From Archangium primigenium (lineage in GTDB: Bacteria > Myxococcota > Myxococcia > Myxococcales > Myxococcaceae), in NCBI RefSeq assembly GCF_016904885.1, contig NZ_JADWYI010000001.1:1984001-2048000 (forward strand): DNA of 64,000 bases, given 5' to 3'. The position numbers and the translations under genes are program-made. The notes beneath the pieces are model-generated. The model was given only the letters and a program-made list of their open reading frames with translations. It was not told the origin of the DNA and did not search any database. Positions 1 to 14,087 of the stretch are shown piece after piece. Numbering within the stretch: position 1 is the stretch's first letter; each line of letters begins with the position of its first letter.

Positions 1-46
1 CGGGCACGAGCTCCACCACGCTGTCGCCATCCGTGAGCACCACCAT
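1..46 (-). CDS. start of an unidentified protein, cut by the window edge
   Basis: Only the first 15 codons are inside the window, reading M-V-V-L-T-D-G-D-S-V-V-E-L-V-P. The ATG at 46-44 has an AGGAGG ribosome site eight bases upstream, and an in-frame stop lies at 79-77, so this is a real start region and not the inside of a longer gene. It lies 64 bases after the deacetylase gene on the same strand, so it is probably the next gene of the same operon. Nothing can be said about function. Confidence 0.35.
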   Translation of the reverse strand, partial: MVVLTDGDSVVELVP

Positions 47-110
47 GTCATCCACCTCCTGGGCCGGGCGCGTGTCCTAGCCCAGGCGTGGACCGGGTTT
101 CACGGCCTTC

Positions 111-893
111 TCACTGGAGCGCGGACCACACGTCGGGCGGCAGACGGTCCGTCGAGAGGAACACCTCGGCGCAGCCGGAGCGGCCCTGGGCCATGGCCTC
201 GCGCCGGTGGAAGGCGTCCAGCGTGGGGGCCACCGCCCGCGAGCCGCCGAACTGGAAGTCCACCTGGGTGCGGTAGTGGTTGCAGCCGGCGACCTTGCGC
301 GGCAGCTCCGCGGTGACGTTCACGGCCAGGGGCTTGAGGCCCGAGGGCACGGAGTCATCCGGCTCGGCATGGGGCTGGCGCACGGCGTAGGGCGTGTCGC
401 GGTACCACAGCGTCCGGCCCGGCTCGAGGCCCAGTGAGGGCAGGGCCCGCACCAGCTGGACATGGTCCACGTGGCTGCCCAGCGCCTGCGGCACGAAGAC
501 GAGGTCCGGCCGCAGCTCCTTCATCAGCGGGGCGAGCATGTCCACCAGGGGGCCCTCGATGGCGTCCTCCCGGCGCGGCGGCGTGAAGAGCGTCTCCCGG
601 ACATAACCCCGGTGGGGGGCCTCGGGCAGGTCCCCCCACACCAGCCGGTCCACGCCCATGAGCGTCGCGAAGTCCCGATCCTCCTCCCGGCGCAGCGCCA
701 TGTAGTCCACCTCCGGGGCGATGCCCTTGGACGTCTGGCACTCCAGGGCGAAGCCGGTGGGGTGGGGCACCGAGCGGGTGAAGCAGGTGACGAGCGCCAC
801 CGTCCACCCCTGGTCCTTGAGACGGGCGAGCGTGCCTCCACAGGAGAAGGCCACGTCGTCCAGGTGCGGCGAGAGGAAGAGGGCGGTGCTCAT
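111..893 (-). CDS. PIG-L/LmbE family deacetylase
   Basis: A 260-residue zinc-dependent deacetylase of the LmbE/PIG-L family, whose members remove N-acetyl groups from GlcNAc conjugates (MshB in mycothiol, BshB in bacillithiol, GlcNAc-PI deacetylase). The first metal motif is S-P-H-L-D-D at residues 8-13 and the second is H-V-D-H at 141-144; both fit the family. I start it at ATG 893 because the metal motif then sits at the usual distance from the N-terminus, and because the start overlaps the stop of the upstream glycosyltransferase gene as ATGA. That coupling argues that it acts on the product of the glycosyltransferase. The substrate is not visible from the sequence. Confidence in the family is high and in an MshB-like role moderate to low. 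Confidence 0.88.
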   Translation of the reverse strand: MSTALFLSPHLDDVAFSCGGTLARLKDQGWTVALVTCFTRSVPHPTGFALECQTSKGIAPEVDYMALRREEDRDFATLMGVDRLVWGDLPEAPHRGYVRETLFTPPRREDAIEGPLVDMLAPLMKELRPDLVFVPQALGSHVDHVQLVRALPSLGLEPGRTLWYRDTPYAVRQPHAEPDDSVPSGLKPLAVNVTAELPRKVAGCNHYRTQVDFQFGGSRAVAPTLDAFHRREAMAQGRSGCAEVFLSTDRLPPDVWSALQ

Positions 894-2173
894 AGCAGGT
901 GCGGCGCGCTCCGGAAGCGGCAGGAAGGATCGGCCTTCTCCGCGGTGGTCTGGGGATCGTAGAGGCCCGTCCACCCCGTGTCCGGACGGGTGCCGGTCAG
1001 GTCCGCGTAGACGTCCTGGATCTGACGGCCCACGGCCTGCCAGGAGTACAGCTCGCGCACTTCCTTGAGCGCCTGGCGCGCGAGGCGCTCGCGCAGCGCG
1101 GGCTCGTCCAGCATCCGGGCGATGGCGTCGGCCAGGGCGTCCGCGTCCTTGGGCGGCACGAGCAGCGCGTCGCGTCCGTCCTCCAGGCAGTCCACCACGC
1201 CCACCGCCCGCGTGGACACGATGGGCAGGCCCGTGGCCATGGCCTCCAGGATGGTGTTGGAGAAGCCCTCCGAGTACGTGGGCGACACGAAGAGGTCTCC
1301 CCGGCGGTAGATCTCGGGCGCGTGCTCGTAGTCGGAGTAGCCGGGCATCTCCACGCGGCCCCCGAGGCCCAGCTCGCCCACGCTGGCGCGCACCGCCTCC
1401 ACGTCCGGACCGATGCCCGAGACGATGAGCTTGAGGTCGCGGCCGGAGGCCACGAGCTTCTTCATCGCGTGCATCATCTCCATCACGCCTTTCCGGGCGT
1501 CCACGCGGCCGTGGTACAGCAGCACGGGCGTGGGGCTCAGGGCGCCAATCGCCGACTCGTCGCGCGGGTGGAAGCGCCGGGTGTCGGTGGCGCCGGGGAC
1601 GATGGTGAAGCGGTCCATGCCCGTGCCGTGGTGGCCCTTCACCTCCTCGGCGAAGGACTGGCTGCCGATGAGCAGCGCGCCCGAGTGGCCGAGCACCGCC
1701 AGCATGGCCTGCTTGTGGGTGGCGCAGCAGGTGCCCACCCAGTGGCCGTCACCGCCCTGGATGGAGACCACGTTGGGCAGTCCCAGCCGCCGGCTCGCCT
1801 CCAGCGCCGCCAGGCCGCACGGATAGCCGTACTGGGCGTGGATGAGATCGAAGGGCCGCAGGCGGTGCTCGCGCTCGATGATGGCGACCATGTCCTCCAC
1901 GTCCTGCTCGAAGCTGGCGGGCAGGCCGTCGTTGACGCGCTGCTCGCCCAGTGCCTCGCGACCGAGCACCTTGGCGCCGTTCACCTCGGGCGGAGGGCCC
2001 CCGCCGTACACCGAGGCGCCCGCCTGATCGTTGCGGTACTGGCTCACCATGGTGACGTCGTGGCCACAGGAGACCAGCTCCTGCACCAGGTTGAGGGCAT
2101 AGACGCTCATGCCGGAGATGGCGGGAAAGAAGCGCCGGGAAATGAAACACACGCGCAGCGGATTCGGGCTCAA
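890..2173 (-). CDS. GT4 family glycosyltransferase (MshA/BshA-like fold)
   Basis: A 427-residue GT-B glycosyltransferase of family 4. The N-terminal domain begins R-V-C-F-I-S with the usual flexible S-G-M-S-V loop near residue 20. The nucleotide-sugar domain has G-R-V-D-A-R-K-G near 222-229 and the EX7E motif at E302 to E310 (S-E-G-F-S-N-T-I-L-E). I use the TTG at 2173 as start: it has GGAGG seven bases upstream and overlaps the stop of the TIM-barrel gene (TTGA), while longer versions lack similarity to the family. Members include MshA, which adds GlcNAc to inositol phosphate. Co-occurrence with inositol-3-phosphate synthase and an LmbE deacetylase makes an inositol-type acceptor plausible, but this is inference. 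Confidence 0.87.
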   Translation of the reverse strand: MSPNPLRVCFISRRFFPAISGMSVYALNLVQELVSCGHDVTMVSQYRNDQAGASVYGGGPPPEVNGAKVLGREALGEQRVNDGLPASFEQDVEDMVAIIEREHRLRPFDLIHAQYGYPCGLAALEASRRLGLPNVVSIQGGDGHWVGTCCATHKQAMLAVLGHSGALLIGSQSFAEEVKGHHGTGMDRFTIVPGATDTRRFHPRDESAIGALSPTPVLLYHGRVDARKGVMEMMHAMKKLVASGRDLKLIVSGIGPDVEAVRASVGELGLGGRVEMPGYSDYEHAPEIYRRGDLFVSPTYSEGFSNTILEAMATGLPIVSTRAVGVVDCLEDGRDALLVPPKDADALADAIARMLDEPALRERLARQALKEVRELYSWQAVGRQIQDVYADLTGTRPDTGWTGLYDPQTTAEKADPSCRFRSAPHLL

Positions 2174-3036
2174 GGCGAGGCCTCCAGTTGAGAAGGAAGG
2201 TGGGCCCGCAACCACTCCAGGGCCTGGGGCACCATGGTGTGGGCGCGGTGTGCATCCCGGGACAGCTCCACGCACACGAGCCGGCGGTAGCCGATGTCCT
2301 GGAGCGCCTGGAGCACCGAGGGCATGTCGAGGTCTCCCTCGCCGAAGGGCAGGTGCTCGTGCACGCCGCGCTTCATGTCCTCCACGGCCACGGTGCCCAG
2401 CACCGGTGCCAGCTCGCGCACGGCGTCCGCGGCCCCGCGCTCCTGGGTCACCAGGAGGTGGCCCACGTCCAGGGCGATCTTGATGGGCGCGGCGCCCAGG
2501 GCGATGACGTCGTGCTGCAGCCGCAGCCAGTCATCCACCGTCTCCACGCGCATGCCGGGCTCGGCCTCCACCGCCGCCACCACGCCGCGCGAGGCCGCGT
2601 AGTCGGACAGCCGGGCCACCCCCTCCACGAGCCACTCCCACGACTGCGTGGGGTCCACGCCCGCCTGGGGCACGCCGCCCCAGAAGGACACCGCCTCGCC
2701 GCGGCAGGTGGCGCAGATGTCCACCGCCCGGCGCAGGAAGTCGAGCCGACGCTCGCGGCCCACGGCATCCGGGGTGACGAGCGTGGGCTCGTGCTTGGCG
2801 CGGGGGTCGAGCAGGAAGCGCGCCCCCGTCTCCACCACCACGTCCAGGCCGAGCCGGTCGAGCAGCCCCGCCAGGGCCCCCGCGCGCCGCTCCAGGTCGG
2901 GCGCGAAGGGATCGAAGTGGTGATGGTCCAGGGTGAGGGCCACGCCGTCGTAGCCGCAGTCGGCGATGAGCCGCAGGGCGTCCTCGAAGCGGTGGTTGGA
3001 CACCCCGTTGGTGTTGTAGGCGAAACGCAGCGTCAT
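2170..3036 (-). CDS. sugar phosphate isomerase/epimerase-like TIM barrel protein
   Basis: A 288-residue protein of the xylose-isomerase-like TIM barrel (AP endonuclease 2) superfamily, which includes IolE, IolH, IolI and many sugar epimerases. It opens with R-F-A-Y-N-T-N-G-V and shows the spread metal ligands of the fold: E in A-V-E-A-E-P, D and H in I-A-L-D-V-G-H, and E in V-C-V-E-L near the end. The start is three bases after the stop of the YcaO gene and its stop overlaps the glycosyltransferase start, so it is translationally coupled to both. Beside an inositol-phosphate synthase and a MocA-type dehydrogenase, an inosose or keto-cyclitol isomerase or dehydratase role is reasonable but not proven. 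Confidence 0.82.
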   Translation of the reverse strand: MTLRFAYNTNGVSNHRFEDALRLIADCGYDGVALTLDHHHFDPFAPDLERRAGALAGLLDRLGLDVVVETGARFLLDPRAKHEPTLVTPDAVGRERRLDFLRRAVDICATCRGEAVSFWGGVPQAGVDPTQSWEWLVEGVARLSDYAASRGVVAAVEAEPGMRVETVDDWLRLQHDVIALGAAPIKIALDVGHLLVTQERGAADAVRELAPVLGTVAVEDMKRGVHEHLPFGEGDLDMPSVLQALQDIGYRRLVCVELSRDAHRAHTMVPQALEWLRAHLPSQLEASP

Positions 3037-3039
3037 GAC

Positions 3040-4524
3040 TCAGGCTCCTCCAAACTTCTTGCGGTCGCGCATCAGCACCTGCACGGCGTGACGCTCGGGC
3101 TCGCGGTAGAGCGCGTACAGGCGGCCCACGCGCTTTTCCGCCTCCTGCACGTTGAACCAGGCGGGCCCGCCCAGCCGGGCCTCGGCGGCGGGGGTGAGGC
3201 GCACGGGCCTGGCGCCCTCGGGCGGCGCGCCCACGCCCGCGAGCCTCCGCTCGCCCCGCTGCATCAGCTTGGCCACGTTGCGCTCGCCGATGCGGTCGTA
3301 CGTCATCGTCTCCACCTCGAGCCCGGGCACCACCACCTTCACGGAGTGCAGGGCGTGGCCCTCGGGCGACAGGTCCGCCACGAGGATGTCGAAGCCCGAC
3401 CCGGTCAGCAGGCGCACCACCTGCTCGAGCCGCTCGGTGGGATCCAGGGTGACCTGGACCTGGGGCAGGTCATTGAAGCGCACCGAGCGCTCGTGCTTGA
3501 GCGTGACGGCCGTCAGGGCGCGCAGGGCGGGCGCGGACATCTGCGCCCAGTCGAGCATGTCGCGCAGGGCCCGGTTCTCCTCCGTGCCCAGGCTCTTCTC
3601 CACCTCGGGCAGCACCTTGCGGAGGTACTCGGGCGGGACCACGCCCTTGAGCGCGGCGAGGGGGCCATGGCCGAAGGCCTTGCGGGTGCGCGAGCCGGCG
3701 TACTCCAGCAGCGCCTTGCGCAGGGCCCGGTCCCGGTCGGGGTCGGCCGCCTCGCCGCAGGCCGTCACCATGAGCGGCTGGTGGTCCGCGTGCAGGTCCC
3801 GGCCCACCACGTAGACACTCACCAGGCCGAAGTCGGTGCTGGCCAGCTTGGCCATGATCTCGATGCCCGCGCGGCGGTAGAGCTCCAGCACCTCACGCAC
3901 CTCGGGCGACACGTCCGCGCCCTCCAGGTCGATGACGACGCCCTGGTCCAGGGCGCGGTAGCCCACGCAGTTGCCGTCGCGCTGCAGCAGCTCGAGGATG
4001 CCGTGGACGATGGCCCGGTCCCGCGTGAGGCCCGCGCCCTGGCCATTGGTGATGGGGCGGATGAGGGGCGTGCGGCCCTGCTGGAGCTGCCCGGGATCCG
4101 TGGCGATGTACTCCTCGGGCACGAGCACCCGCTCGCCCGTGGTCAGGCGCGTCGTCTCCACCCAGGTGAGCGTCATGTCCGGGTGGTAGGGGCTGCCCGC
4201 GGGCAGACACAGCGTGAGGGGGTCGGCCACCCCCGAGGCCCCGCGCTCGCGCACCATCTGGTGGTAGCTGCCCGTGAAGCGCGGGAGCGTGGGCACGAAC
4301 CGGGCGGCGGACACCTCCTCGGCCAGCTCGCCCAGGGAGCTGACCGCGGCCTCGTCCTCGGTGGCGCCGTAGCCACTGGCGGGAATCCACTGGCCGTCCT
4401 CCATCTGGAGGGCGCTCACCACCGAGGGGATGCCCAGGCGGTCCAGGGCATCGTTGCGGAAGATCATCACCTCACCGGGGGGCATGGCTCGGAGATACGC
4501 GTCACGGATGTCCTTGAAGTTCAT
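3040..4524 (-). CDS. YcaO-like family protein, copy 1
   Basis: A 494-residue YcaO-domain protein. YcaO enzymes use ATP to activate amide carbonyls, making azolines, thioamides or amidines; a few act on small molecules. Three YcaO ATP/Mg segments can be seen: G-A-T-E-D-E-A ending in E-L-A-E-E near residues 54-69, G-Q-G-A-G-L-T with E178 and R182 near 161-182, and A-C-G-E-A-A-D with E274 near 255-274. The C-terminus ends K-K-F-G-G-A and lacks the P-x-P-x-P tail of azoline-forming YcaOs. It is clearly a paralogue of the gene just upstream. No precursor peptide, TfuA partner or E1/ThiF-like protein is seen in the operon, which argues for a non-peptide substrate or a trans-acting precursor. Confidence 0.85.
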   Translation of the reverse strand: MNFKDIRDAYLRAMPPGEVMIFRNDALDRLGIPSVVSALQMEDGQWIPASGYGATEDEAAVSSLGELAEEVSAARFVPTLPRFTGSYHQMVRERGASGVADPLTLCLPAGSPYHPDMTLTWVETTRLTTGERVLVPEEYIATDPGQLQQGRTPLIRPITNGQGAGLTRDRAIVHGILELLQRDGNCVGYRALDQGVVIDLEGADVSPEVREVLELYRRAGIEIMAKLASTDFGLVSVYVVGRDLHADHQPLMVTACGEAADPDRDRALRKALLEYAGSRTRKAFGHGPLAALKGVVPPEYLRKVLPEVEKSLGTEENRALRDMLDWAQMSAPALRALTAVTLKHERSVRFNDLPQVQVTLDPTERLEQVVRLLTGSGFDILVADLSPEGHALHSVKVVVPGLEVETMTYDRIGERNVAKLMQRGERRLAGVGAPPEGARPVRLTPAAEARLGGPAWFNVQEAEKRVGRLYALYREPERHAVQVLMRDRKKFGGA

Positions 4525-4568
4525 GATGAAGGCTCCTGGTGAGGTGTGGGATCGAAGGTGGGTGAGGC

Positions 4569-6059
4569 TCAGCCCAGGCCGCCGCCGAAGCGGGGCTGGC
4601 GCAGGAGCAGCTGGGCGGCGTGGCGCTCGGGCTCGCGGTAGAGCGAGTACAGGCGGCCCACGAGCTGCTCGGCCAGGCGCGTGTTGAACCAGACCGGGCC
4701 GCCCAGGCGCTCCTCGGCCTCGGGCGTGAGGAGCACGGGCCGGGCGCCCTCGGGCGCCTTGCCGTGGCCCGCGAGCGGATCCTCGCGCGCGAGCAGCTTG
4801 GCGATGCCGCGCTCGCCGATGCGGTGGTAGCTCATGCTCTCCACCTCCAGGCCGGGGACGATGACCTTGACCGAGTGCACCGAGTGGTCCGAGGGCGACA
4901 GGTCCGCCACGAGGATGTCGAAGCCCGCCTGGGTGAGCTTGTTGACGAGCAGGGCGGCGCGGTCCTTGGCGTCCCCGAGCGGGCCGCTGGTGGGCAGGTC
5001 GGTGAAGGGCACACGGCGCTTCTCGCTGAGCACCGGCTTCTCGATGAGCGCGCGCATCTGGGGCGCGCTGAGCCGGGCCCAGAAGGCCATGGCGTGCAGG
5101 GCGCGGGGCTCCTCGTCCTCCAGCTTGATGTAGGGCAGGAAGCGGTCGAAGTAGCCCGGCGGCACGATGCGCGCGGCCAGCTCCAGCGGGCCGTTGGCGA
5201 ACGCCTTGCGGGTGCGCGAGCCGGCGTACTCCAAGAGCGCCTTGCGCAGCGCGCGCTCGCGGTCCAGGTCCGCCGCCTCGCCGCAGGCGGTGAGCGCCAT
5301 GGGCTGATCATTGAGGTACGGGTCGCGCCCCACCACGTAGACGCTCACCAGGCCGAAATCGGTGCTGGCCAGCTTGGGAATCACCTCGATGCCCAGGGAC
5401 TGGTAGCGCGCGAGCAGGTCACGCACGTCGTGGCCGAGCGGGGCGTTGGTCAGGTCCAGCACCACGCCCTGGTCGAGCGCGCGGAACTGCAGGCCGTTGC
5501 CATCGCGCTGGAGCAGCTCGAGGATGCCGTGGGCGAGCGCCTGCTCCTGGGTGAGGCCCGCGCCCTGGCCGTTGGTGATGGGCGTGATGAGGGGCGAGCG
5601 ACCGCGCAGCTCGCCGCCCCAGGTGGCCACCCACTCCTCGGGGATGAGCACGCGCTCGCCGGTGAGCAGGCGCTTCACCGTCACCCAGGTGAGCGGCATG
5701 TCCGCGTCGTAGTGGCTGCCCGCCGTGAGGCACAGGCGCAGGGGGTTCATCACCGCGGACTCGCCGTGGTGGCGCACCAGCTCGTTGTAGCTGCCGGTCA
5801 CGCGCGGGTGGGCGCGCAGCGCGGCGTCGGTGAAGACGGCCTCGGCCATCTCGCCCAGGGCGCCCACCTCGGCTTCCTCCAGCGTGGCGCCGTAGCCGTG
5901 GGTGGCGAATTGGGTGCCCGTCTTCAACCGGAGGCTGGCCGCCACGGCGGGGACGCCTACCCGATCGATGGGATCCTCCCGGAACATCTCCAGCTCTCCC
6001 GGGGGGAAAGCACTGCGGTAGGCCTCGCGCGCTTCAACCAGACTCTGCTTCTTGCTCAT
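4569..6059 (-). CDS. YcaO-like family protein, copy 2
   Basis: A 496-residue YcaO protein with the same layout as its downstream paralogue: G-A-T-L-E-E-A with E-M-A-E near residues 54-70, G-Q-G-A-G-L-T with E-L-L-Q-R-D near 162-184, and A-C-G-E-A-A-D with A-L-L-E-Y near 255-276. The blocks T-N-G-Q-G-A-G-L-T and L-L-E-Y-A-G-S-R-T-R-K-A-F are identical in both copies, so they arose by tandem duplication and both stay under selection. The C-terminus ends Q-P-R-F-G-G-G-L-G, again without a P-x-P-x-P tail. The start overlaps the stop of the metallo-hydrolase gene (ATGA), and the gap to copy 1 is 44 bases. The two may form a heteromer or act one after the other. Confidence 0.85.
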   Translation of the reverse strand: MSKKQSLVEAREAYRSAFPPGELEMFREDPIDRVGVPAVAASLRLKTGTQFATHGYGATLEEAEVGALGEMAEAVFTDAALRAHPRVTGSYNELVRHHGESAVMNPLRLCLTAGSHYDADMPLTWVTVKRLLTGERVLIPEEWVATWGGELRGRSPLITPITNGQGAGLTQEQALAHGILELLQRDGNGLQFRALDQGVVLDLTNAPLGHDVRDLLARYQSLGIEVIPKLASTDFGLVSVYVVGRDPYLNDQPMALTACGEAADLDRERALRKALLEYAGSRTRKAFANGPLELAARIVPPGYFDRFLPYIKLEDEEPRALHAMAFWARLSAPQMRALIEKPVLSEKRRVPFTDLPTSGPLGDAKDRAALLVNKLTQAGFDILVADLSPSDHSVHSVKVIVPGLEVESMSYHRIGERGIAKLLAREDPLAGHGKAPEGARPVLLTPEAEERLGGPVWFNTRLAEQLVGRLYSLYREPERHAAQLLLRQPRFGGGLG

Positions 6060-6892
6060 GACGACAACTCCTCCAACGCAATGGCGTTCGTATGCGGCAT
6101 GCCCGAAAGCAGCCGATCGAACAGGGCGAGCGCGTGTTCACGCGTCACTCCGCGCGCGAACTCAAATGGCGTGAACACGTTCTCGAACGGCAACTGCTCG
6201 AAGACCTCCCGATAGCGACGCAGCTCCGCGTGACTGAGCGGAATGGCGTAATGAAATCCCTTGTGACACGACAGGCCCACGGGCTGGCCCCTCGGGCCCA
6301 GCTCCACCTTGAGCGCGTCGCCGCTGAAGAGCGAGCGCGTGCGGGCGTCGTACATGACGCTGTGGCCCTCGTAGTGGCCGTTCACGTGGTGCAGCGTCAG
6401 GTCCGGGGCGAGCGTGTGCTCGTCATCCACGGGCCAGCGCACTTTGAAGGCCTTGGTATAGGACAGGGCATCGCGGTGCAGCACCAGCAGCGGATCGAAG
6501 CGCTCCTGGAGCTGCCACAGCGCGCCGAAGCCGTGCACGTGCGAGGAGGACAGCCAGCGGATGCCCCCCAGGGACGCGATGTGCTCGAGCGCCGGGCGCG
6601 TGTACCAGGGCGCGCCCTCGAAGGCCACGTTGCCCTCGGGCCGCGTGAGCAGCCAGCCCGTGCCACCCAGGCCGAAGCCGGGCGTGCAGCTGAAGCCGAG
6701 CACGCCGGGCAGGGCCTCGCTCCAGGTCGTCTGGAGCTGCTCGGACACGCGCGCGGCGGAGCGGAAGTCCCAGCCGTTCTCGGGCAGGGCGTTGCGCACG
6801 TCCATGCAGGTGGGGCAGTGCGGGGGCGGCTCGTGCGCGAACCACGGCTGCCAGGTGCCACAGTTGGCGCAGGCGTAGCGGACTAGCGGCAC
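6056..6892 (-). CDS. metallo-beta-lactamase-fold protein with N-terminal zinc ribbon
   Basis: About 278 residues. The N-terminus has two paired cysteines, C-A-N-C and C-P-T-C, 15 residues apart, typical of a rubredoxin or zinc-ribbon knuckle. The rest resembles the metallo-beta-lactamase fold: S-S-H-V-H-G-F-G-A-L for the first motif, G-H-Y-E-G-H-S-V for the next His, and F-S-G-D-A-L for the bridging Asp. The classical HxHxDH is HxHGFG, so the second metal site looks altered. I start at GTG 6892, which has GGGGG at good spacing and overlaps the end of the dehydrogenase gene; an ATG at 6922 is the alternative. Its stop overlaps the YcaO start. It could be a hydrolase or a redox or sulfur-handling partner of the YcaO pair. 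Confidence 0.75.
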   Translation of the reverse strand: MPLVRYACANCGTWQPWFAHEPPPHCPTCMDVRNALPENGWDFRSAARVSEQLQTTWSEALPGVLGFSCTPGFGLGGTGWLLTRPEGNVAFEGAPWYTRPALEHIASLGGIRWLSSSHVHGFGALWQLQERFDPLLVLHRDALSYTKAFKVRWPVDDEHTLAPDLTLHHVNGHYEGHSVMYDARTRSLFSGDALKVELGPRGQPVGLSCHKGFHYAIPLSHAELRRYREVFEQLPFENVFTPFEFARGVTREHALALFDRLLSGMPHTNAIALEELSS

Positions 6893-7920
6893 GACATGTC
6901 CCCCCAGGTGCGCGGATCGCACGAGCGCTCGAGCAGGCCGAGCAGCCGCAGGTCCCGCTCGGGCGCGAACGGATAGGTCCGGCCCTCCAGCACGGCGGAG
7001 GAGAAGGCCTCCACCTGGTTGAGGAAGGGGCTGCGGTCCTCCTCGGGCGACAGCTCCACGGGCCGCTCGGCGCCGGTGGCCGCGTCGGTGAGCGTCAGCG
7101 TGCCCCCGGGCGTCTGGCCCATGGTCTTGTAGGCGAGCGCGCGCGCCTGGGTTCCGATGATCTCCAGGGTGCGGCGCGGGTAGTTGTCCGGGCAGTTGTA
7201 GGCCACCTGGAGCATGCCGAGGATGCCGCTCTTCATGCGGCCCACGAGCACGGCGCCATCATCCACGGCGTAGTCGTGCACGCGCCGCTGCTGCACGGCG
7301 ATGAGCGACTCCCACTCGTCGCCGAGCAGCACCTCGAGCAGGTCGATGCCGTGGGGCGCCAGGTCGATCATCGCGCCGCCGCCGGCCTGGCGCGGGTCGA
7401 TGCGCCAGTTGTTGGCCGTCCAGTCGCGCGGCGTCCAGCAGGCGTAGTGGATGCGCGCCTGGGTGACGGTGCCCAGGGCGCCCTCGTGGATGAGGGTGCG
7501 CAGCTTGCGGTGGGCCGCGTGGTGGCGCTGGTCGAAGGCGGTGGCGTACATCACGCCCGCGCGCTTGCACGCCTCCACCATGCGCACGCCATCCTCCAGG
7601 CGCGTGGCCATGGGCTTCTCGCAGAAGACGTGCTTGCCCGCGGCGGCGCACGCCTCCGTGAGGGCGGCGTGCGCGTGGTTGGGCGTGGCGATGTAGACCG
7701 CCTGGACGTCGGGGTCCTGCAGCACCTGGCGCAGCTCGGTGTGCCGGAGCACCTCGTCGCCGGGCATGCGCGCGAGGGCCTCGGCATCCAGATCACACAG
7801 CGCCACGAGCCGGGCATTGCCCGCCTGCAACACCGCGGGGGCCACGTAGTCCCGGGCCACCCATCCACACCCCACGATGGCCCACCCGAGCCGGCGTGAG
7901 CGAGGCAATGCACAAATCAT
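6883..7920 (-). CDS. Gfo/Idh/MocA family NAD(P)-dependent oxidoreductase
   Basis: A 345-residue dehydrogenase with an N-terminal Rossmann fold (A-I-V-G-C-G-W-V-A near residue 14) and the family signature C-E-K-P-M-A near residue 99, followed by the C-terminal alpha/beta domain (D-P-R-Q-A-G-G-G-A-M-I-D then H-G-I-D). Relatives oxidise sugars and cyclitols, including myo-inositol 2-dehydrogenase (IolG). With inositol-3-phosphate synthase at the head of the operon and an IolE/IolI-like TIM barrel downstream, oxidation of an inositol derivative is a natural guess, but substrate cannot be read from sequence. ATG 7920 has GGGGAAG upstream, and the gap to the preceding HD-like gene is 54 bases. Confidence 0.87.
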   Translation of the reverse strand: MICALPRSRRLGWAIVGCGWVARDYVAPAVLQAGNARLVALCDLDAEALARMPGDEVLRHTELRQVLQDPDVQAVYIATPNHAHAALTEACAAAGKHVFCEKPMATRLEDGVRMVEACKRAGVMYATAFDQRHHAAHRKLRTLIHEGALGTVTQARIHYACWTPRDWTANNWRIDPRQAGGGAMIDLAPHGIDLLEVLLGDEWESLIAVQQRRVHDYAVDDGAVLVGRMKSGILGMLQVAYNCPDNYPRRTLEIIGTQARALAYKTMGQTPGGTLTLTDAATGAERPVELSPEEDRSPFLNQVEAFSSAVLEGRTYPFAPERDLRLLGLLERSCDPRTWGDMSCR

Positions 7921-7974
7921 CGGACTTCCCCTCCCCTCGGTACTGCTGAACGGATTGCTGGCGCGGCCAGGCGG

Positions 7975-8907
7975 CTAGTGGATGAGACCCGCGGCGGCGA
8001 GCACCGCGTTCTCGTAGGCCTGCATGGGGCCTTCGTGGATGAGGTCCAGGTCCACCATCGCCTGGCGCAGGGTGAAGCCCGCGGCGCGTGCATGCGCGTC
8101 CATCTCCAGCACCCGGTCCATCGCGTCGGCGGCGTGAAAGGCGCGCGCCTCCGGGCTGTCCGTGTGCGGCAGGATCTTCCTCGCCTCGCGCACGAGGGCG
8201 GCGAGGCCCTCGGGCAGCGTGGCGAGCACGTCCTCGGTGACGCGGGCCATGAGCGGCGCCGCGTCCTCTCCGAGCAGCCGGTCGCCGTAGTCCCCCGCGT
8301 CGGGCAGCACCACGTTGAAGAAGTGGTGGCTCAACGCGGCCACGAAGGGGATGGCCGGGTCCGCGCCGAAGAGCGGGGAGACGAGCACCGACGCCACGGC
8401 CACCACGTAGCAGTGGTCGGCGTGGCTCTCCGCGGGCAGGAGCACCACGCGCGGCGTGTTGGCGCGCGTGGGTCCGGCCCGGGGTTGACGCACCAGCCGC
8501 TCGACGAAGGCGGGCGGCTGGATTTGCCCCGGGACCGGCAGTCCGGCGAGCGCCGTGTGCAGGCGCTCGCGCAGCTCCCGGTCCAGGGGCTCCGCCGCGG
8601 CGTCCAGGCCCCGGCGGAGGACTTTCACGGCGCGCTCGTGCGGCATGCCGGCCCGGGACAGCACGTCCAGGTCGATGCCCCCCAACCGGATGCCGGTCAG
8701 GGCGAGCGCCGCTTCCCGCAGCGCCAGGGTGTCCGGATGCACGCCTGACACCAGGGCCGCCCAGGCCCGGCGGAAGCCATGGGCCGCCAGTCCCTCCGGT
8801 TGATCCGGTGTCCGCACCCGCTTGAGGTCCATCAGCTCGCCCACCAGGGGGCGAAGCCCGGCCAGGCGGCCGGGGACCGCGGTGATTCCCTGCGCAGTGT
8901 CCTTCAT
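7975..8907 (-). CDS. HD-domain-like protein
   Basis: A 310-residue protein with no family I can name firmly. Its middle has an HD-superfamily pattern: E-S-H-A-D-H-C-Y-V-V-A (H162, H165), then A-L-S-H-H-F-F-N (H194, H195) where the signature usually reads H-D, then D-A-G-D-Y-G-D (D202, D205/206), and a late A-M-D-R-V-L-E. HD proteins are metal phosphohydrolases, but some are di-iron oxygenases, such as myo-inositol oxygenase and PhnZ. The gene begins three bases after the inositol-3-phosphate synthase stop, so the two are surely co-translated; a phosphatase or an oxygenase acting on the inositol product would make sense. Both the fold and the role are inference. Confidence 0.6.
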   Translation of the reverse strand: MKDTAQGITAVPGRLAGLRPLVGELMDLKRVRTPDQPEGLAAHGFRRAWAALVSGVHPDTLALREAALALTGIRLGGIDLDVLSRAGMPHERAVKVLRRGLDAAAEPLDRELRERLHTALAGLPVPGQIQPPAFVERLVRQPRAGPTRANTPRVVLLPAESHADHCYVVAVASVLVSPLFGADPAIPFVAALSHHFFNVVLPDAGDYGDRLLGEDAAPLMARVTEDVLATLPEGLAALVREARKILPHTDSPEARAFHAADAMDRVLEMDAHARAAGFTLRQAMVDLDLIHEGPMQAYENAVLAAAGLIH

Positions 8908-8910
8908 GGC

Positions 8911-10134
8911 CTAGCCCCGGATGCGCTCGCCGCCGCCGGTGGTCTGCACGCTCTCCTTGCCCAGCCAGCTCATCAGCCGGCGCTGCTGCTCGGGCACGGC
9001 GTGCTCGGGCGTGCCGCCGTTGCGCGTCATGGGCGCCTTGAAGAAGCAGCCCAGCTCCTCGATGACGCCCGCCTCCCCGCGGCGCTTGGCCAGGTCCAGC
9101 GTGCGCGCCAGCTCCACCACCAGCGGCGCGGCGAGGATGGAGTCCTTGCAGAGGAAGTTGATCTTCAGCTGCATGGGCTGACCGCAGAAGCCGATGACGT
9201 CGATGTTGTCCCAGGCCTCCTTGTTGTCACCGCGCGGCCGGTAGTACTGGATCTGCACGATGTGATCCTGGACCTTGTAGCCGAGGATGCTGTCGAGCAC
9301 GGCGCCCTTGGTGTCGATCTTCGACGCCTTGGAGGCCGGATCGTTGAGCGCCTCGCCGTCGCGGTTGCCCAGGATGTTGGTGGAGTACCAGCCGTCCACG
9401 TACAGCGCGCGGTCGCGCAGGGCCGGGGCGAGCACCGTCTTGAGCAGCGTCTGGCCCGTCTTGCCGTCCTTGCCCGCCACGGGCGAGCCGTTGCGGCGCG
9501 CCAGCTCCAGGATGGCCGGCACGTCCGCGGCCACGCTGGGCGTGAAGTTGGCGAAGGGGATGCCCGTGGTCACCGCCGCGTAGGCATAGAGCATGGCGGG
9601 GCTGATGTTCGGATCGTTCGCGTCGAGCGCCGTGTCGAAGGCCTCGGGCGTGGCGAACTGGGGCAGGGCGAGGTTCACCGGCCGCTCGGTGGAGGCGACG
9701 TTCACCATCACCACCCGGTCGAGCTTCTGGTCCTGCTTGAAGCGCACCAGGTCCTCGAGGATGCCGTTGACCTGGTCGCGCAGGTCCTTGGCCTTCTTGG
9801 TGGAGCTGCCCACCACGTTCTTGCAGAAGTTGGTGTTGGACGAGGCCGTCCACGGCCGCATCTTGCCGAGGATGGGGCCCACCGCGGCGAGCTGGGTCTC
9901 GTTGAGCACGCCGTGGTTGCGCGCCGCCTTCGCCAGATCGTCGTCGTACAGGTCCCACCCGCCGAAGACCAGGTCCCCGTAGTCCGCCAGCCCCACGCCC
10001 CGCACCCCCGCCAGCGGAAGGCCCTTGGTGTCCGTCAGCCCCCGCTTGAGGAGCTCCATGCCCGCCACCGCGGTCGTCGCCACCGCGCCACCCAGACCCA
10101 CCAACGCGACACCCAGACGCTCCGTCCCTGCCAT
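8911..10134 (-). CDS. inositol-3-phosphate synthase
   Basis: A 407-residue myo-inositol-1(3)-phosphate synthase, which turns glucose 6-phosphate into inositol phosphate using enzyme-bound NAD. It has the Rossmann start A-L-V-G-L-G-G-A-V-A-T-T, the conserved S-S-N-T-N-F block, V-N-V-A-S-T-E, the G-K-D-G-K-T-G-Q-T segment with W-Y-S-T-N-I-L-G-N, and late L-K-I-N-F-L-C-K-D-S, all hallmarks of the family. I use ATG 10134, seven bases after AAGGGG. It is the first gene of the long minus-strand operon, and so supplies the likely starting metabolite. In mycothiol-makers this enzyme feeds MshA; in other bacteria it feeds inositol lipids or compatible solutes. Confidence 0.93.
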   Translation of the reverse strand: MAGTERLGVALVGLGGAVATTAVAGMELLKRGLTDTKGLPLAGVRGVGLADYGDLVFGGWDLYDDDLAKAARNHGVLNETQLAAVGPILGKMRPWTASSNTNFCKNVVGSSTKKAKDLRDQVNGILEDLVRFKQDQKLDRVVMVNVASTERPVNLALPQFATPEAFDTALDANDPNISPAMLYAYAAVTTGIPFANFTPSVAADVPAILELARRNGSPVAGKDGKTGQTLLKTVLAPALRDRALYVDGWYSTNILGNRDGEALNDPASKASKIDTKGAVLDSILGYKVQDHIVQIQYYRPRGDNKEAWDNIDVIGFCGQPMQLKINFLCKDSILAAPLVVELARTLDLAKRRGEAGVIEELGCFFKAPMTRNGGTPEHAVPEQQRRLMSWLGKESVQTTGGGERIRG

Positions 10135-10605
10135 GTGACTACCCCTTGTTGTGAAGGCCATTGCCCTGTGGACCCATGACGACTCCGGGTCGGATTGGGC
10201 TCGCACGCCCCAGCTCCAGGGCTGCGCGAGCCTTCCGATTCATCCGGGGCTCCCACGAGTTCATGCAATGAATTGCCATGAAAGCCGTCCCTCACAACCC
10301 CCATAAGGGCATACATCCCCGGCGAGGGAGGCCAACGTCTCGTACGAGAAAGGCCGCCTGGGGCGTGTCGCGTGAAGCACAGGGACAAGGTCCCCTGGCC
10401 GACAGGATGTCTGGGTTTATCGGCCGACGAGAGTCGGGGTCGGAACCGACCGCGACCCCAGGGCAGGCCTTCCGGCGTCTCGACCCGTGAGAAACGGGGT
10501 CGGAGTGGACCCCGATTCTCCGAGGAGAATCACCCTTTCTCGGGGCGTGAGAGGTGGGGTTGGAAGTGACCGCCACGCCGGGTCCGGGTGGAATGCCTTT
10601 CATCG
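10135..10605. other. gene-free region upstream of the inositol operon
   Basis: About 470 bases without a convincing gene. It must hold the promoter of the inositol/YcaO operon (minus strand), although I see no clear -35/-10 pair. A 13-base palindrome, TTCATGCAATGAA, lies at 10260-10272, about 125 bases before the ATG, and could be an operator. The half farther from the operon holds three units of a 60-bp-period repeat, listed separately. Possible reading frames here are short and have no recognisable composition. Confidence 0.5.
10427..10580. repeat. three imperfect tandem units with a 60-bp period
   Basis: The core G-G-G-G-T-(C/T)-G-G-A-(A/G)-(C/T)-(C/G)-G-A-C-C recurs with its GGGGT ending exactly at 10440, 10500 and 10560. 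Each copy is preceded by a GAGA/GAAA stretch, and in the last two by CGTGAGA. About 25-30 bases of each unit are conserved and the remaining 30 differ. In the first copy the core is itself part of an inverted repeat with GACCCC. The period resembles a CRISPR, but repeats are too divergent and there is no cas gene. It could be an array of binding sites or a remnant of a myxobacterial intergenic repeat. Confidence 0.6.
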
Positions 10606-10652
10606 AAAAAAGGGCGGCGGAGCGGGGTCGAAAACACCCCGCTCCGCCGCCC
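10606..10652 (-). terminator. intrinsic terminator of the MATE exporter gene
   Basis: A perfect 17-bp stem, arms GGGCGGCGGAGCGGGGT at 10612-10628 and ACCCCGCTCCGCCGCCC at 10636-10652, with a seven-base loop. On the minus strand it is followed at once by six T residues (AAAAAA at 10606-10611 on the plus strand). It stands 35 bases after the MATE stop, which makes it the clearest factor-independent terminator in the window. It separates the MATE gene from the inositol operon that follows on the same strand. Confidence 0.9.
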
Positions 10653-10686: not shown

Positions 10687-12132
10687 TCAGATCCGACCGA
10701 GCTTCCACCGCCCGCGCCGGAAGAGCACGGCGCACAGGATGCCGAGCACGCAGTAGCCGATGGTGATGGCCAGGAAGGCGCCCAGGGCCCCGAGGCCCAG
10801 GGGGCCCGAGAGCACCCAGGCCAGGGGAATCTGGAGCAGCCAGATGGACACCAGGTTGATGAGGGTGGGCGTGGTGGTGTCCCCGGCGCCGTTGAAGGCA
10901 TGGGGCAGCACGGTCCCGAAGGCGTAGAAGAGCAGGCCCACGCTCACGATGCGCAGGCAGCGCGTGGCCTGGAAGACGACCTCGGCCTCGGTGGTGAAGG
11001 CGTGCACCAGGGGCTCGGCGAACACGAGGAAGCCCAGGGCCACCGCGCACAGGAAGAAGAGGGTGTGGAAGCTGGCGCGCCAGGCGACGCGCTCGGCCCG
11101 GTCGCTGTCGCCGGCCCCCAGGCTCTGGCCCACGAGCGTGCCCGCCGCGTGGCTCAGGCCCCAGGAGGGCTGCTGCGCGAGCAGGATGATGCGCATGGCG
11201 ATGGTGTAGCCGGCGAGCGCCGCGCTGCCGAACTGGGCGATGATGCGCATGAGGACCAGCCAGTTGCCCATGGTGAGCAGGGCCTGGAGCAGGGCGCTGC
11301 CGGACAGCCGCAGGAGCGACAGGAGCGTGCGCGGCTCCATGCCCAGGTGCCGCCGGGCGATGACGAGCCGGCCCCGGCCCCGGGCCAGGGCCCGGAGCTG
11401 GTAGAGCACGCCCACGCCGCGGCTGAGCGTGGTGGCCACCGCGGCGCCCAGGACGCCCATGCCCTCGAGCGGCCCCATGCCGAAGATGAGCAGCGGGGCG
11501 AGCACCAGGTTGAGGGCATTGGCCACCCAGAGCGCGCGCATGGACGTGGCCGCGTCCCCCGCGCCGCGCAGGATGGCGCTGATGAGGAAGAGCAGCATGA
11601 TGATGACCGTGCTGCCGAGCATCACCCGGGCGTAGGGCGTGCCGTGGGCCACCACCTCGGGCGAGGCGCCCAGGGCCGAGAGCAATTGGGGCGCGAAGAG
11701 GGCGCCCAGCACCGCCACCGGCACGGACAGGAACAGGCCCAGCCACAAGGACTGCACCGCCGCGCTCGCCGCGCGCTCGGGGTTCTTCTCCCCGATGCGT
11801 CGGGCCACCAGCGCCGTGGCGCCGATGGACAGGCCCATGGGCAAGGTCTGCAGGAAGGACAGCATGGACTCGGTGAGGCCCACCGTGGCCACCGAGGCCG
11901 CGCCCAGCCGGGAGACGAAGAAGACGTCCACCACGGCGAAGACGGACTCCATCACCATCTCCAACACCATGGGGATGGACAAGAGCAGCAGCGCGCGGTT
12001 GACGGAACCGGCGGTCAGGTCCCGGGTCGTGCCCCGCAGCGCCTCGCGCAGCGTGGACCACCAACCAGAGGGAGCGTCGAGGGAGGGGGAGGAAGCAGGC
12101 GTGAAGATTTCAGGAGAAAGCGTCTGGGACAT
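10687..12132 (-). CDS. MATE family multidrug/metabolite exporter
   Basis: About 481 residues with twelve hydrophobic segments in the two-times-six pattern of MATE transporters, which export cationic drugs or metabolites using Na+ or H+ gradients. The first repeat has I-P-M-V-L-E-M-V-M-E-S-V then D-V-F-F-V-S-R-L-G, and M-G-L-S-I-G-A-T-A-L-V-A-R-R-I-G-E typical of the NorM/DinF group. I start at ATG 12132 because the first membrane segment then follows a short polar leader; the ribosome site is weak, and a longer start at 12210 would overlap an inverted repeat. It has its own terminator, so it is a single-gene unit. It could export the product of the adjacent inositol/YcaO operon, but the terminator between them weakens that link. 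Confidence 0.88.
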   Translation of the reverse strand: MSQTLSPEIFTPASSPSLDAPSGWWSTLREALRGTTRDLTAGSVNRALLLLSIPMVLEMVMESVFAVVDVFFVSRLGAASVATVGLTESMLSFLQTLPMGLSIGATALVARRIGEKNPERAASAAVQSLWLGLFLSVPVAVLGALFAPQLLSALGASPEVVAHGTPYARVMLGSTVIIMLLFLISAILRGAGDAATSMRALWVANALNLVLAPLLIFGMGPLEGMGVLGAAVATTLSRGVGVLYQLRALARGRGRLVIARRHLGMEPRTLLSLLRLSGSALLQALLTMGNWLVLMRIIAQFGSAALAGYTIAMRIILLAQQPSWGLSHAAGTLVGQSLGAGDSDRAERVAWRASFHTLFFLCAVALGFLVFAEPLVHAFTTEAEVVFQATRCLRIVSVGLLFYAFGTVLPHAFNGAGDTTTPTLINLVSIWLLQIPLAWVLSGPLGLGALGAFLAITIGYCVLGILCAVLFRRGRWKLGRI

Positions 12133-12204
12133 GAAATGAAGCGCGCCGAAGGGGTTGGCTTCTTCGCGATGCCAGGGAACCACGCCTCTGGCGTGCTTCA
12201 TTTC
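12133..12204. promoter_or_regulatory. inverted repeat ahead of the MATE gene
   Basis: Arms GAAATGAAGCGCGCC (12133-12147) and GGCGTGCTTCATTTC (12190-12204) match as an inverted repeat at 14 of 15 positions, 42 bases apart. The left arm touches the ATG of the MATE gene. Paired, spaced arms of this kind suit a dimeric repressor or looping operator; as RNA they would form a long stem over the start codon. No regulator gene lies beside it. Confidence 0.5.
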
Positions 12205-12255
12205 CAACACCCGGCGCCCGGCCGGAGTCCAGACAGGGCGCCGGGCGCCCGCGCG

Positions 12256-12857: not shown

Positions 12858-13895
12858 CTAGCCGAAGAAGACCTGGGCGACCTTGAAGAACTCCTCGGGC
12901 ACCTTCTTGAGCTCGCGCGTGGCCTCGGACAGGTCCACGCTGACGATGTCGTTGCCCCTCAGGGCCGCCATCTTGCCGAACTCGCCCTGGGCGACCATGT
13001 CGCAGGCGTGCACGCCGTAGCGCGTGGCCAGCACGCGGTCGTGCGCCGTGGGCGCGCCGCCGCGCTGGATGTGCCCGAGCACCGACACGCGCGTCTCGTA
13101 GCCCGTGCGCCGCTCGATCTCGTTGGCCACCAGGGCGCCCACGCCGCCGAGCCGCGGCCGGCCCGCCTCGTCCAGCGAGCCCGAGGTGACGAGCTGCTCC
13201 TGGCCCTCGTGGGTGAGCTTGATGCGCGTGCCCTCGGCCACCACCACGATGGAGAAGGAGCGGCCGGTGGAGTGGCGGTGCTTGATGTGCTCGGCCACGC
13301 GCTCCAGGTCCGCGGGCACTTCCGGCACGAGGATGACGTCCGCGCCGCCGGCCAGGCCCGCGTAGGTGGCGATCCACCCCACGTGCCGGCCCATCACCTC
13401 GCACACGATGACGCGCTTGTGCGACTCGGCGGTGGAGTGCAGCCGGTCGATCGCCTCGGTGGCGATGCCCACCGCGGTGTCGAAGCCGAAGGTGAAGTCC
13501 GTGCCGTTCAGGTCGTTGTCGATCGTCTTGGGCACGCCCACGATGCGCACGCCCTCCTGGGACATGCGCGTGGCGGCCGACAGCGTGCCCTCGCCGCCGA
13601 TGGCGATGACGGCGTGGATTTCATGCCGCTCGATGGCGCGCTTGACGCGCTCCAGGCCGTTCTCGACCTTGAAGGGGTTGACGCGCGAGGTGCCCAGGAT
13701 GGTGCCGCCCCGGTGGAGGATGCCCGAGGTGGTCTCCCGCGTCAGGCGGAAGTGGTTATCGTCCAAGAGGCCCCGCCAACCATCCCGAAGGCCCATCATC
13801 TCGAATCCGTGGGCGCTCGCCCGACGGACAACGGCGCGGATGACCGCGTTGAGGCCGGGGCAATCACCCCCGCCCGTGAGAACGGCGACTTTCAT
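12858..13895 (-). CDS. pfkA: 6-phosphofructokinase
   Basis: A 345-residue phosphofructokinase that phosphorylates fructose 6-phosphate in glycolysis. It begins K-V-A-V-L-T-G-G-G-D-C-P-G-L-N (nucleotide loop) and has G-G-E-G-T for the next loop, P-K-T-I-D-N-D for the catalytic Asp, and M-G-R-H-V-G-W for substrate contact. The combination of Gly after G-G-E with Lys in P-K-T-I-D-N-D marks the mixed 'group III' type also found in actinobacteria, which can be ATP-dependent despite the Lys seen in pyrophosphate enzymes. ATG 13895 has AAGGG six bases upstream. In Myxococcus the enzyme is activated by the kinase Pkn4, whose gene is adjacent there; no such kinase gene is next to it here. Confidence 0.92.
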   Translation of the reverse strand: MKVAVLTGGGDCPGLNAVIRAVVRRASAHGFEMMGLRDGWRGLLDDNHFRLTRETTSGILHRGGTILGTSRVNPFKVENGLERVKRAIERHEIHAVIAIGGEGTLSAATRMSQEGVRIVGVPKTIDNDLNGTDFTFGFDTAVGIATEAIDRLHSTAESHKRVIVCEVMGRHVGWIATYAGLAGGADVILVPEVPADLERVAEHIKHRHSTGRSFSIVVVAEGTRIKLTHEGQEQLVTSGSLDEAGRPRLGGVGALVANEIERRTGYETRVSVLGHIQRGGAPTAHDRVLATRYGVHACDMVAQGEFGKMAALRGNDIVSVDLSEATRELKKVPEEFFKVAQVFFG

Positions 13896-14031
13896 GAAGT
13901 GCCCTTCTAGCTCACCTCCCGCGTGAGTCATGCGCGAAGTTGAGGGAGAAACCGCCTGTCCGCCTGGAGGTCAGGCCACCCTACCCACACCGCCCCAGTC
14001 CCCGGGCCCGATGCGTTGGGTGACTCCCTCC

Positions 14032-14060
14032 TTGGTGCTCCGAGGGGCATTGGCTATGCT
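14032..14060 (+). promoter_or_regulatory. likely sigma-70 type promoter of the NagB-like gene
   Basis: TTGGTG (14032-14037) and TATGCT (14055-14060) are separated by 17 bases. Transcription would begin near 14067, which places the TTG at 14088 about 20 bases into the message and excludes the upstream TTG at 14016 as a start. Confidence 0.5.
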
Positions 14061-14087
14061 GAGGGGCACCTCTCCCCACGGACCGCC

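Follow-up and report, generated by a model that had tools for sequence, protein, structure and literature searches.

A nine-gene operon of Archangium primigenium, recurring in six phyla: a probable glucosaminyl-cyclitol pathway with YcaO enzymes at its centre

The mycothiol pathway (Ino1-MshA-MshB-MshC-MshD) brings together an inositol phosphate synthase, a GT4 glycosyltransferase and an LmbE-type deacetylase in the logic of a GlcN-inositol core, and the bacillithiol pathway (BshA-BshB-BshC) has the same GT4 and LmbE pair, with malate as its acceptor. The mycosporine/gadusol pathways combine a sugar phosphate cyclase (SPC), an O-methyltransferase and an ATP-grasp step. The ebo operon, a widespread cryptic cyclitol pathway, pairs a DHQS-family cyclase with a xylose-isomerase-like TIM protein; its EboD, a member of the SPC superfamily, is close to EEVS and DDGS, the cyclases of gadusol/MAA synthesis (PMC5133447). 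YcaO proteins, in so far as they have been characterised, act on peptide or protein backbones, the function of most being stated as unknown (PMC8442711); for Actinobacteria, one study states that evidence for YcaO functions outside RiPPs is lacking (PMC8442711).

The locus considered here lies at one end of the window, the 64,000-nucleotide stretch of the A. primigenium genome that was analysed (contig NZ_JADWYI010000001.1, positions 1,984,001 to 2,048,000). Nine open genes, all on the minus strand at window positions 111-10134, form one operon (Table 1). Their families are confirmed by Pfam and NCBIfam profiles; open reading frames and junction sequences bear out the order and tight coupling given in a preliminary description of this DNA. 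(Read from the sequence, Ino1 and HD are separated by 3 bp, as are YcaO2 and the TIM barrel; the HD/MocA gap of 54 bp is the largest within the operon, and the two YcaO genes are 44 bp apart. The MocA and MBL genes overlap by 10 bp, the MBL/YcaO1 and GT4/LmbE junctions are ATGA, and the TIM/GT4 junction is TTGA.)

Table 1. Features of the operon and its upstream flank, in window coordinates
Feature	Position	Strand	Size	Basis
Ino1, myo-inositol-1-phosphate synthase	8914-10134	-	407 aa	Pfam NAD_binding_5 1.3e-64, Inos-1-P_synth 3.9e-33
HD-fold protein	7978-8907	-	310 aa	Pfam HD_3 2.4e-6
GFO/IDH/MocA oxidoreductase	6886-7920	-	345 aa	Pfam
Zinc-ribbon MBL (metallo-beta-lactamase fold)	6059-6892	-		Pfam
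YcaO1	4572-6059	-	496 aa	Pfam YcaO 4.4e-55
YcaO2	3043-4524	-	494 aa	Pfam YcaO 3.3e-60
Xylose-isomerase-like TIM barrel (AP_endonuc_2)	2173-3036	-	288 aa	Pfam 8.6e-39
GT4 glycosyltransferase	893-2173	-	427 aa	profiles and tree
LmbE/PIG-L deacetylase	114-893	-	260 aa	Pfam 2e-18
Strong terminator-like hairpin, between operon and MATE gene	10612-10652	-	17 pairs	T tail
MATE-family transporter gene, upstream of operon	10687-12210	-		family by sequence reading

The MATE gene precedes the operon in many myxobacteria (synteny in L021-L025, L033, L044 and L066), and its product, judged from its family, is a candidate exporter encoded in a separate transcription unit. The further gene that had been noticed at the LmbE edge is indeed present, and is aldose-1-epimerase-like; a threonine synthase-like gene follows it, to the left of the window. 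Their position beside the operon is confined to the window's own genus; for this reason they were rejected as members and probably lie outside it.

The order Ino1-HD-methyltransferase-MocA-MBL-YcaO-TIM-GT4-LmbE recurs nearly unchanged over six phyla, with holders in Myxococcota, Alpha- and Betaproteobacteria, Actinomycetota, Bacteroidota, Planctomycetota and Verrucomicrobiota (YcaO loci were recovered by search of genome contigs with an alignment query). The proposal that these genes stay together as an undescribed operon thus holds, no description having turned up in the literature searched; its framing as a myxobacterial locus is too narrow. Among 195 Myxococcota genomes, 31 have the operon YcaO, and every genome with the HD protein (29; hypergeometric 1e-32) or the cluster-type GT4 (25; 3e-26) is one of these 31; at genus level the corresponding value is 2e-8. 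The recurrence of order together with this nested co-occurrence places the association of the genes beyond chance. Only four of 72,556 plasmid records contain the HD gene, and the same four contain a full-length YcaO; in Methylobacterium aquaticum 22A and Roseomonas the operon is plasmid-borne. Gain and loss are patchy. The window copy lacks the methyltransferase gene, present in most holders, and has two YcaO genes; three loci (L053, L054 and L059) encode methyltransferase and MocA as one fused protein, MBL is absent from the Methylobacterium operon, and in Actinomycetospora the gene set is divided between two loci, each set with paralogous IclR-like regulators.

Ino1 scores only 40.5 bits against the mycothiol_INO1 model (cut-off 638). 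In four loci (Planctomycetota, Verrucomicrobiota and Polaromonas) a DHQS-family sugar phosphate cyclase (NF004852, 482 bits), with no counterpart in the window operon, stands in for both Ino1 and the TIM barrel, the latter an accompaniment of Ino1-type operons. This exchange supports a cyclitol core. The earlier suggestion of a GlcN-cyclitol type of structure with YcaO at the centre is supported. The TIM barrel retains metal-type residues, and its faint resemblance to UlaE, IolE and IolI suggests, weakly, kinship with IolE/IolI/epimerase proteins. The conserved genes differ from ebo in lacking a UbiA-type EboC and a phosphodiesterase-type EboF, and in the presence of Ino1, GT4, LmbE and YcaO.

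The C-terminal domain of the HD protein is YfbR/HDDC2-like, with its dyad altered (H194-H195 in place of H-D) and invariant columns in the alignment. Its AlphaFold model (pLDDT 91.5) matches 1xx7 and HDDC2 with a VIA Z of about 14, and 5'-deoxynucleotidases head the structure matches. Inositol oxygenase (MIOX) was considered and set aside: it does not figure among these matches, an absence that is not proof. The HD gene is retained in cyclase-type operons, which makes a phosphatase-only role unsatisfying; a C7 unphosphorylated ketone from the cyclase would bar its acting there as a simple inositol-phosphate phosphatase. MocA is nearest in solved structure to 1,5-anhydrofructose reductase (2glx, 1.3e-43), and scores 117 bits against IolG, under the cut-off of 355. 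The MBL protein has an N-terminal zinc ribbon with invariant C8, C11, C26 and C29, and an HxHxDH motif shrunk to HxH; its AlphaFold model (pLDDT 94.3) matches 2p97 with a VIA Z of 20.1.

All 23 cluster GT4s that were sampled fall in a single clade, separate from MshA and BshA (support 100/99). The window GT4 falls well below the MshA and BshA cut-offs (89.3 bits against 462.5, and 83.3 against 273.7), the window LmbE does so for MshB (18.3 against 224), and the pair lies under both bacillithiol pathway cut-offs. The solved structures nearest LmbE are the glycopeptide pseudoaglycone deacetylases Dbv21/Orf2 (GlcNAc-type), so that LmbE is probably an N-deacetylase of a GlcNAc unit.

YcaO1 and YcaO2 score 187.7 and 204.6 bits against a Pfam threshold of 25.7; in the tree, YcaO1 belongs to a lineage of the window's own genus and YcaO2 groups with other myxobacterial operon YcaOs. 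Like the YcaOs of RiPP pathways, McrA thioamidation and S12 modification, they have the YcaO domain with putative ATP/Mg-site glutamates (both window copies have E70, E73, E181 and E277, matched to MJ1094/MkYcaO by profile alignment). E70, E73, E181, R185, D186 and E277 are kept in essentially all intact YcaOs, the exceptions being some extra or decayed myxobacterial copies. The nearest solved structure is MJ1094, at only 1.2e-17. Unlike those YcaOs, they are set among sugar enzymes and lack the PxPxP tail, ending in FGGGLG and KFGGA. No conserved short ORF that might encode a precursor peptide was found in the flanks within 4 kb of the operons, and no E1, TfuA or peptidase partner among the conserved operon genes. 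The absence of a conserved short peptide from the flanks, taken with internal gaps of at most 54 bp, favours a non-peptide substrate. A second, polyphyletic context joins an operon-type YcaO to a sugar ABC importer and a polysaccharide-deacetylase-like protein, which suggests that a related compound is handled elsewhere; YcaOs in this setting, apart from the rest of the pathway, could serve degradation.

The operon can best be thought of as a glucosaminyl-cyclitol (pseudodisaccharide-type) small-molecule pathway, probably horizontally spread, and completed by an ATP-dependent YcaO whose substrate is not a peptide. The following is inferred in its product and chemistry, in the sequence of its steps, in the choice of GlcNAc for the sugar and of nitrogen for the nucleophile, and in the role of the product. 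Ino1 would supply inositol phosphate, with the HD-fold, phosphatase-like enzyme acting at an early step; GT4 would add a GlcNAc unit, from which LmbE would free the amine. (The likely acceptor, the product of Ino1 or of the cyclase, is a point of difference from bacillithiol.) Oxidation of a ring hydroxyl would fall to MocA, and isomerisation or dehydration of the keto-cyclitol to the TIM barrel. YcaO and ATP would then phosphorylate a carbonyl or enol oxygen for displacement by nitrogen, from ammonia or from the newly freed GlcN amine, generating an enamine- or amidine-type group, and in most hosts, though not from the window operon, a methyltransferase would cap the product. The non-canonical HD dyad, the lack of a step for MBL and its absence from Methylobacterium count against this proposal, as do the retention of HD in cyclase-type loci, if the ketone made there is C7 and unphosphorylated, and the importer-linked YcaOs, if they serve degradation; and a precursor peptide may be encoded elsewhere in the genome.

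A more specific version, a mycosporine- or gadusol-like screen against UV or oxidative stress, is put forward tentatively. MocA and the IolE-like TIM step (or the cyclase) would yield a hydroxy-cyclohexenone, O-methylated by the methyltransferase, and YcaO, in place of the mycosporine ATP-grasp enzymes (if the two are analogous), would activate the vinylogous acid for attack by an amine. The cyclase of variant operons, the presence of IolE among the TIM kin and a methyltransferase profile weakly nearest UbiG O-methyltransferases are consistent with this; no ATP-grasp MysC/MysD or NRPS gene occurs among the conserved operon genes, which differ from mycosporine/gadusol also in the additional GT4, LmbE, HD and MBL and, in most hosts, Ino1. 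The Roseomonas operon adjoins two spore-photoproduct-lyase genes, and a UVA absorber compared to avobenzone is known from Methylobacterium (PMC7769811), with no account of its biosynthesis found in the literature examined. Air, leaf, desert or crust is the source of many holders, going by their records or by what is typical of the genus, but others are soil myxobacteria, marine genera and one tick isolate, and the window operon lacks the methyltransferase. Carried further, and a shade more tentatively, the metabolite might constitute an unrecognised UV- or stress-protective class of at least six phyla, an inositol- or cyclase-derived cyclohexenone joined by YcaO to glucosamine nitrogen, which other bacteria import and process by means of the ABC importer, the deacetylase-like protein and a YcaO of their own.

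Aminocyclitol antibiotics use the Ino1, MocA, GT4 and deacetylase classes. A product of inositol and glucosamine that serves as a signal, or as an antibiotic resembling aminoglycosides or glycosidase inhibitors, is nevertheless unlikely: the operon has these classes, the patchy gain and loss, and in myxobacteria the upstream MATE gene, but its conserved genes include no aminotransferase or resistance gene, and an antibiotic pathway would not usually keep one strict architecture across six phyla. YcaO can introduce thioamides together with TfuA (PMC8442711); that it attaches such a group, or another containing sulfur, to a glycosyl-cyclitol is decidedly unlikely, the conserved genes including neither TfuA nor a rhodanese or sulfide donor. 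A glycolipid or envelope component is, if anything, more doubtful; GT4 and PIG-L classes serve envelopes too, and an acyltransferase closes the verrucomicrobial/Polaromonas clusters, but it is confined to that subgroup and no polymerase or flippase is conserved. A RiPP pathway with an unlinked precursor, in keeping with the peptide and protein substrates of characterised YcaOs, is highly improbable for want of a conserved short ORF within 4 kb, of partner genes among the conserved set and of a proline-rich C-terminus, and equally improbable is the low-molecular-weight thiol of the preliminary description, which shares Ino1, GT4 and LmbE with the mycothiol core: no MshC/MshD type gene (Cys ligase, acetyltransferase) occurs among the nine genes or conserved neighbours and no BshC type among the operon genes, MocA, TIM, HD, MBL and YcaO are added, and the tested genomes have a genuine BshA (the window genome, 514.7 bits against 273.7) or MshA (actinobacterial holders) besides the cluster GT4. 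As far as could be checked, the genes were not found scattered, nor the GT4 among lipopolysaccharide or thiol enzymes, nor the YcaO in a peptide pathway.

We know of no YcaO previously known to act on a non-peptide small molecule, and a search of the YcaO literature on mycosporine, inositol, cyclitol and mycothiol yielded no description of the pathway. The metabolite may have been overlooked because no family model names the HD, methyltransferase, MBL or YcaO proteins of the operon. Its breadth of distribution and carriage on plasmids suggest ecological importance. With its YcaO surrounded by cyclitol and amino-sugar enzymes, and with no peptide detectable, this nine-gene operon of six phyla opens a non-peptide YcaO reaction to direct test, M. 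aquaticum 22A and Roseomonas being apparently convenient organisms for the purpose. If the UV- or stress-metabolite reading is true, its YcaO would be, to our knowledge, the first to act on such a molecule.

The window lies in a 9.47 Mb contig from a myxobacterial-type genome, at bases 1984001-2048000. Its operon comprises nine genes on the minus strand (10134 to 111) with overlapping or very short junctions (gaps ≤ 54 bp). The preliminary description had read this tight coupling and the gene families correctly: Pfam and NCBIfam assign them likewise. Left of window position 1 lie an aldose-1-epimerase-like and a threonine synthase-like gene, which adjoin the operon in its own genus only. Between the upstream terminator and Ino1 (10400-10600), roughly three degenerate direct repeats built around GGTCxxTTCCGACCCC..TCTC are discernible by eye.

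Searching relatives for YcaO and scanning 84,980 species genomes with a profile turned up 37 loci, to which plasmid records added four; gene order was mapped by tblastn and with HMMs built in this analysis. The full order Ino1-HD-MT-MocA-MBL-YcaO-TIM-GT4-LmbE (HD, HD-fold protein; MT, methyltransferase; MBL, metallo-beta-lactamase-fold protein; TIM, xylose-isomerase-like barrel) is found in Myxococcaceae, Skermanella, Aerophototrophica, Parvularcula, Roseomonas, Modestobacter, Geodermatophilaceae, Lewinella, Neolewinella, Saprospiraceae and Leeuwenhoekiella. YcaO is present in 31 of 195 Myxococcota genomes, HD in 29 and operon-type GT4 in 25, every holder of the latter two being among the 31; in 72,556 plasmids, HD occurs in the same four records that hold full-length YcaO. 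(Two spore-photoproduct-lyase family genes directly adjoin the Roseomonas plasmid copy, L069:15801-17922, and MdoH/OpgH-like glucan glucosyltransferase genes lie near the operon in three alphaproteobacteria, flanking loci L041, L042 and L069.)

MT is absent from the window operon and several relatives' operons, and none was found across the window organism's whole genome. The Hymenobacter operon also lacks MT, that of Methylobacterium lacks MBL, and Actinomycetospora divides the gene set between two loci with paralogous IclR-like regulators. At L026 and L027, a second locus, HD-MT-YcaO, accompanies a main operon without HD and MT. Close relatives G001-G003 retain only remnants, and the pathway is thus dispensable. 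Isosphaeraceae, Verrucomicrobia and Polaromonas have a DHQS-family sugar phosphate cyclase instead of Ino1 and TIM and keep the other seven families; MT and MocA form one polypeptide of ~750 aa in three such loci. Because cyclase-type loci form no single group in the GT4 or YcaO tree, this exchange, or a transfer, probably occurred more than once.

Locations of genes near the window operon (read from sequence) and of MT-MocA fusions
Feature	Location	Strand
NagB/6-phosphogluconolactonase-like gene	window 14016-14828	+
6-phosphofructokinase-like gene	window 12858-13931	-
MT-MocA fusion	L053:3785-6073	
MT-MocA fusion	L054:3895-6138	
MT-MocA fusion	L059:3662-5905	

The nearest relatives of MocA and LmbE are anhydrofructose reductase and pseudoaglycone deacetylases, respectively. 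TIM has isomerase-type metal residues (UlaE, IolE and IolI are weak kin), and MT is class I (UbiG is weak kin). MBL has a confidently predicted fold, zinc-ribbon cysteines and a motif reduced to HxH. In a confident predicted model, the C-terminal half of HD resembles YfbR/HDDC2 5'-deoxynucleotidases; HH stands where the HD dyad is expected, and ExHxxH and PDxGxxG are additionally conserved.

Both window YcaOs have the complete set of putative ATP-site residues; in the YcaO tree YcaO1 belongs to the lineage of its own genus and YcaO2 to the general myxobacterial one. Additional tandem copies originated independently in Corallococcus and in a Myxococcaceae MAG. Among the extra or decayed copies, some no longer have E70 or E73. 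In the second Corallococcus copy (L037:6721-8196, L032:6651-8180) the putative Mg-site glutamate E70 is G or K, and these copies are possibly pseudoenzyme partners. Operon remnants in the window's genus (L018, L019, L020) keep YcaO1 open with E70 or E73 changed to K, which may reflect decay or a new function.

Operon-type YcaO also stands beside sugar ABC importer genes and a polysaccharide-deacetylase-like protein (L047, L050, L051, L056, L065) in Sphingomonas jatrophae, a Sphingomonadaceae MAG, Rubrobacteraceae and an actinobacterial MAG; amino-sugar-type catabolic genes can be read nearby in one MAG. Neither GT4 nor HD was found in these five genomes, and their YcaOs are not monophyletic, nesting beside biosynthetic ones. 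Possibly this is an uptake or processing module for the operon product or a relative.

Sugar phosphate cyclase products are keto-cyclitols; since the cyclase replaces the Ino1-TIM route, this suggests that TIM and MocA turn inositol into a keto- or dehydrated cyclitol. On the simplest reading, the operon product is a glucosaminyl-cyclitol: LmbE would free the GlcN amine (the sole amine source visible in the operon), YcaO with ATP would activate the cyclitol carbonyl, and nitrogen would attack. The YcaO ItfB is reported to use ammonia in amidine formation (PMC11002830). A UV-screen version of this product is a candidate that fits the proposed chemistry and part of host ecology.

In membership tests the operon lacks at least one defining feature of every pathway compared (mycothiol, bacillithiol, RiPP, mycosporine and ebo), and it is therefore placed under none of them. 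Judged from sequence, it is not a visible peptide pathway: no short ORF within 4 kb is conserved across phyla, no E1 or TfuA partner of YcaO was found, and the YcaO C-terminus has no proline-rich tail. The low-molecular-weight thiol of the preliminary description is rejected, since the cluster GT4s form a single clade (support 100/99, in all bootstrap trees) grouping with neither MshA nor BshA, and tested hosts have the genuine enzymes: MshA (635-647 bits) in Modestobacter, Geodermatophilaceae and Actinomycetospora, BshA in the window genome, G010 and tested Bacteroidota.

In its mode of working the operon is most like a glucosaminyl-cyclitol pathway to which YcaO has been added. A literature search found no paper describing it; a YcaO reaction on a non-peptide, if demonstrated, would make it categorically new.
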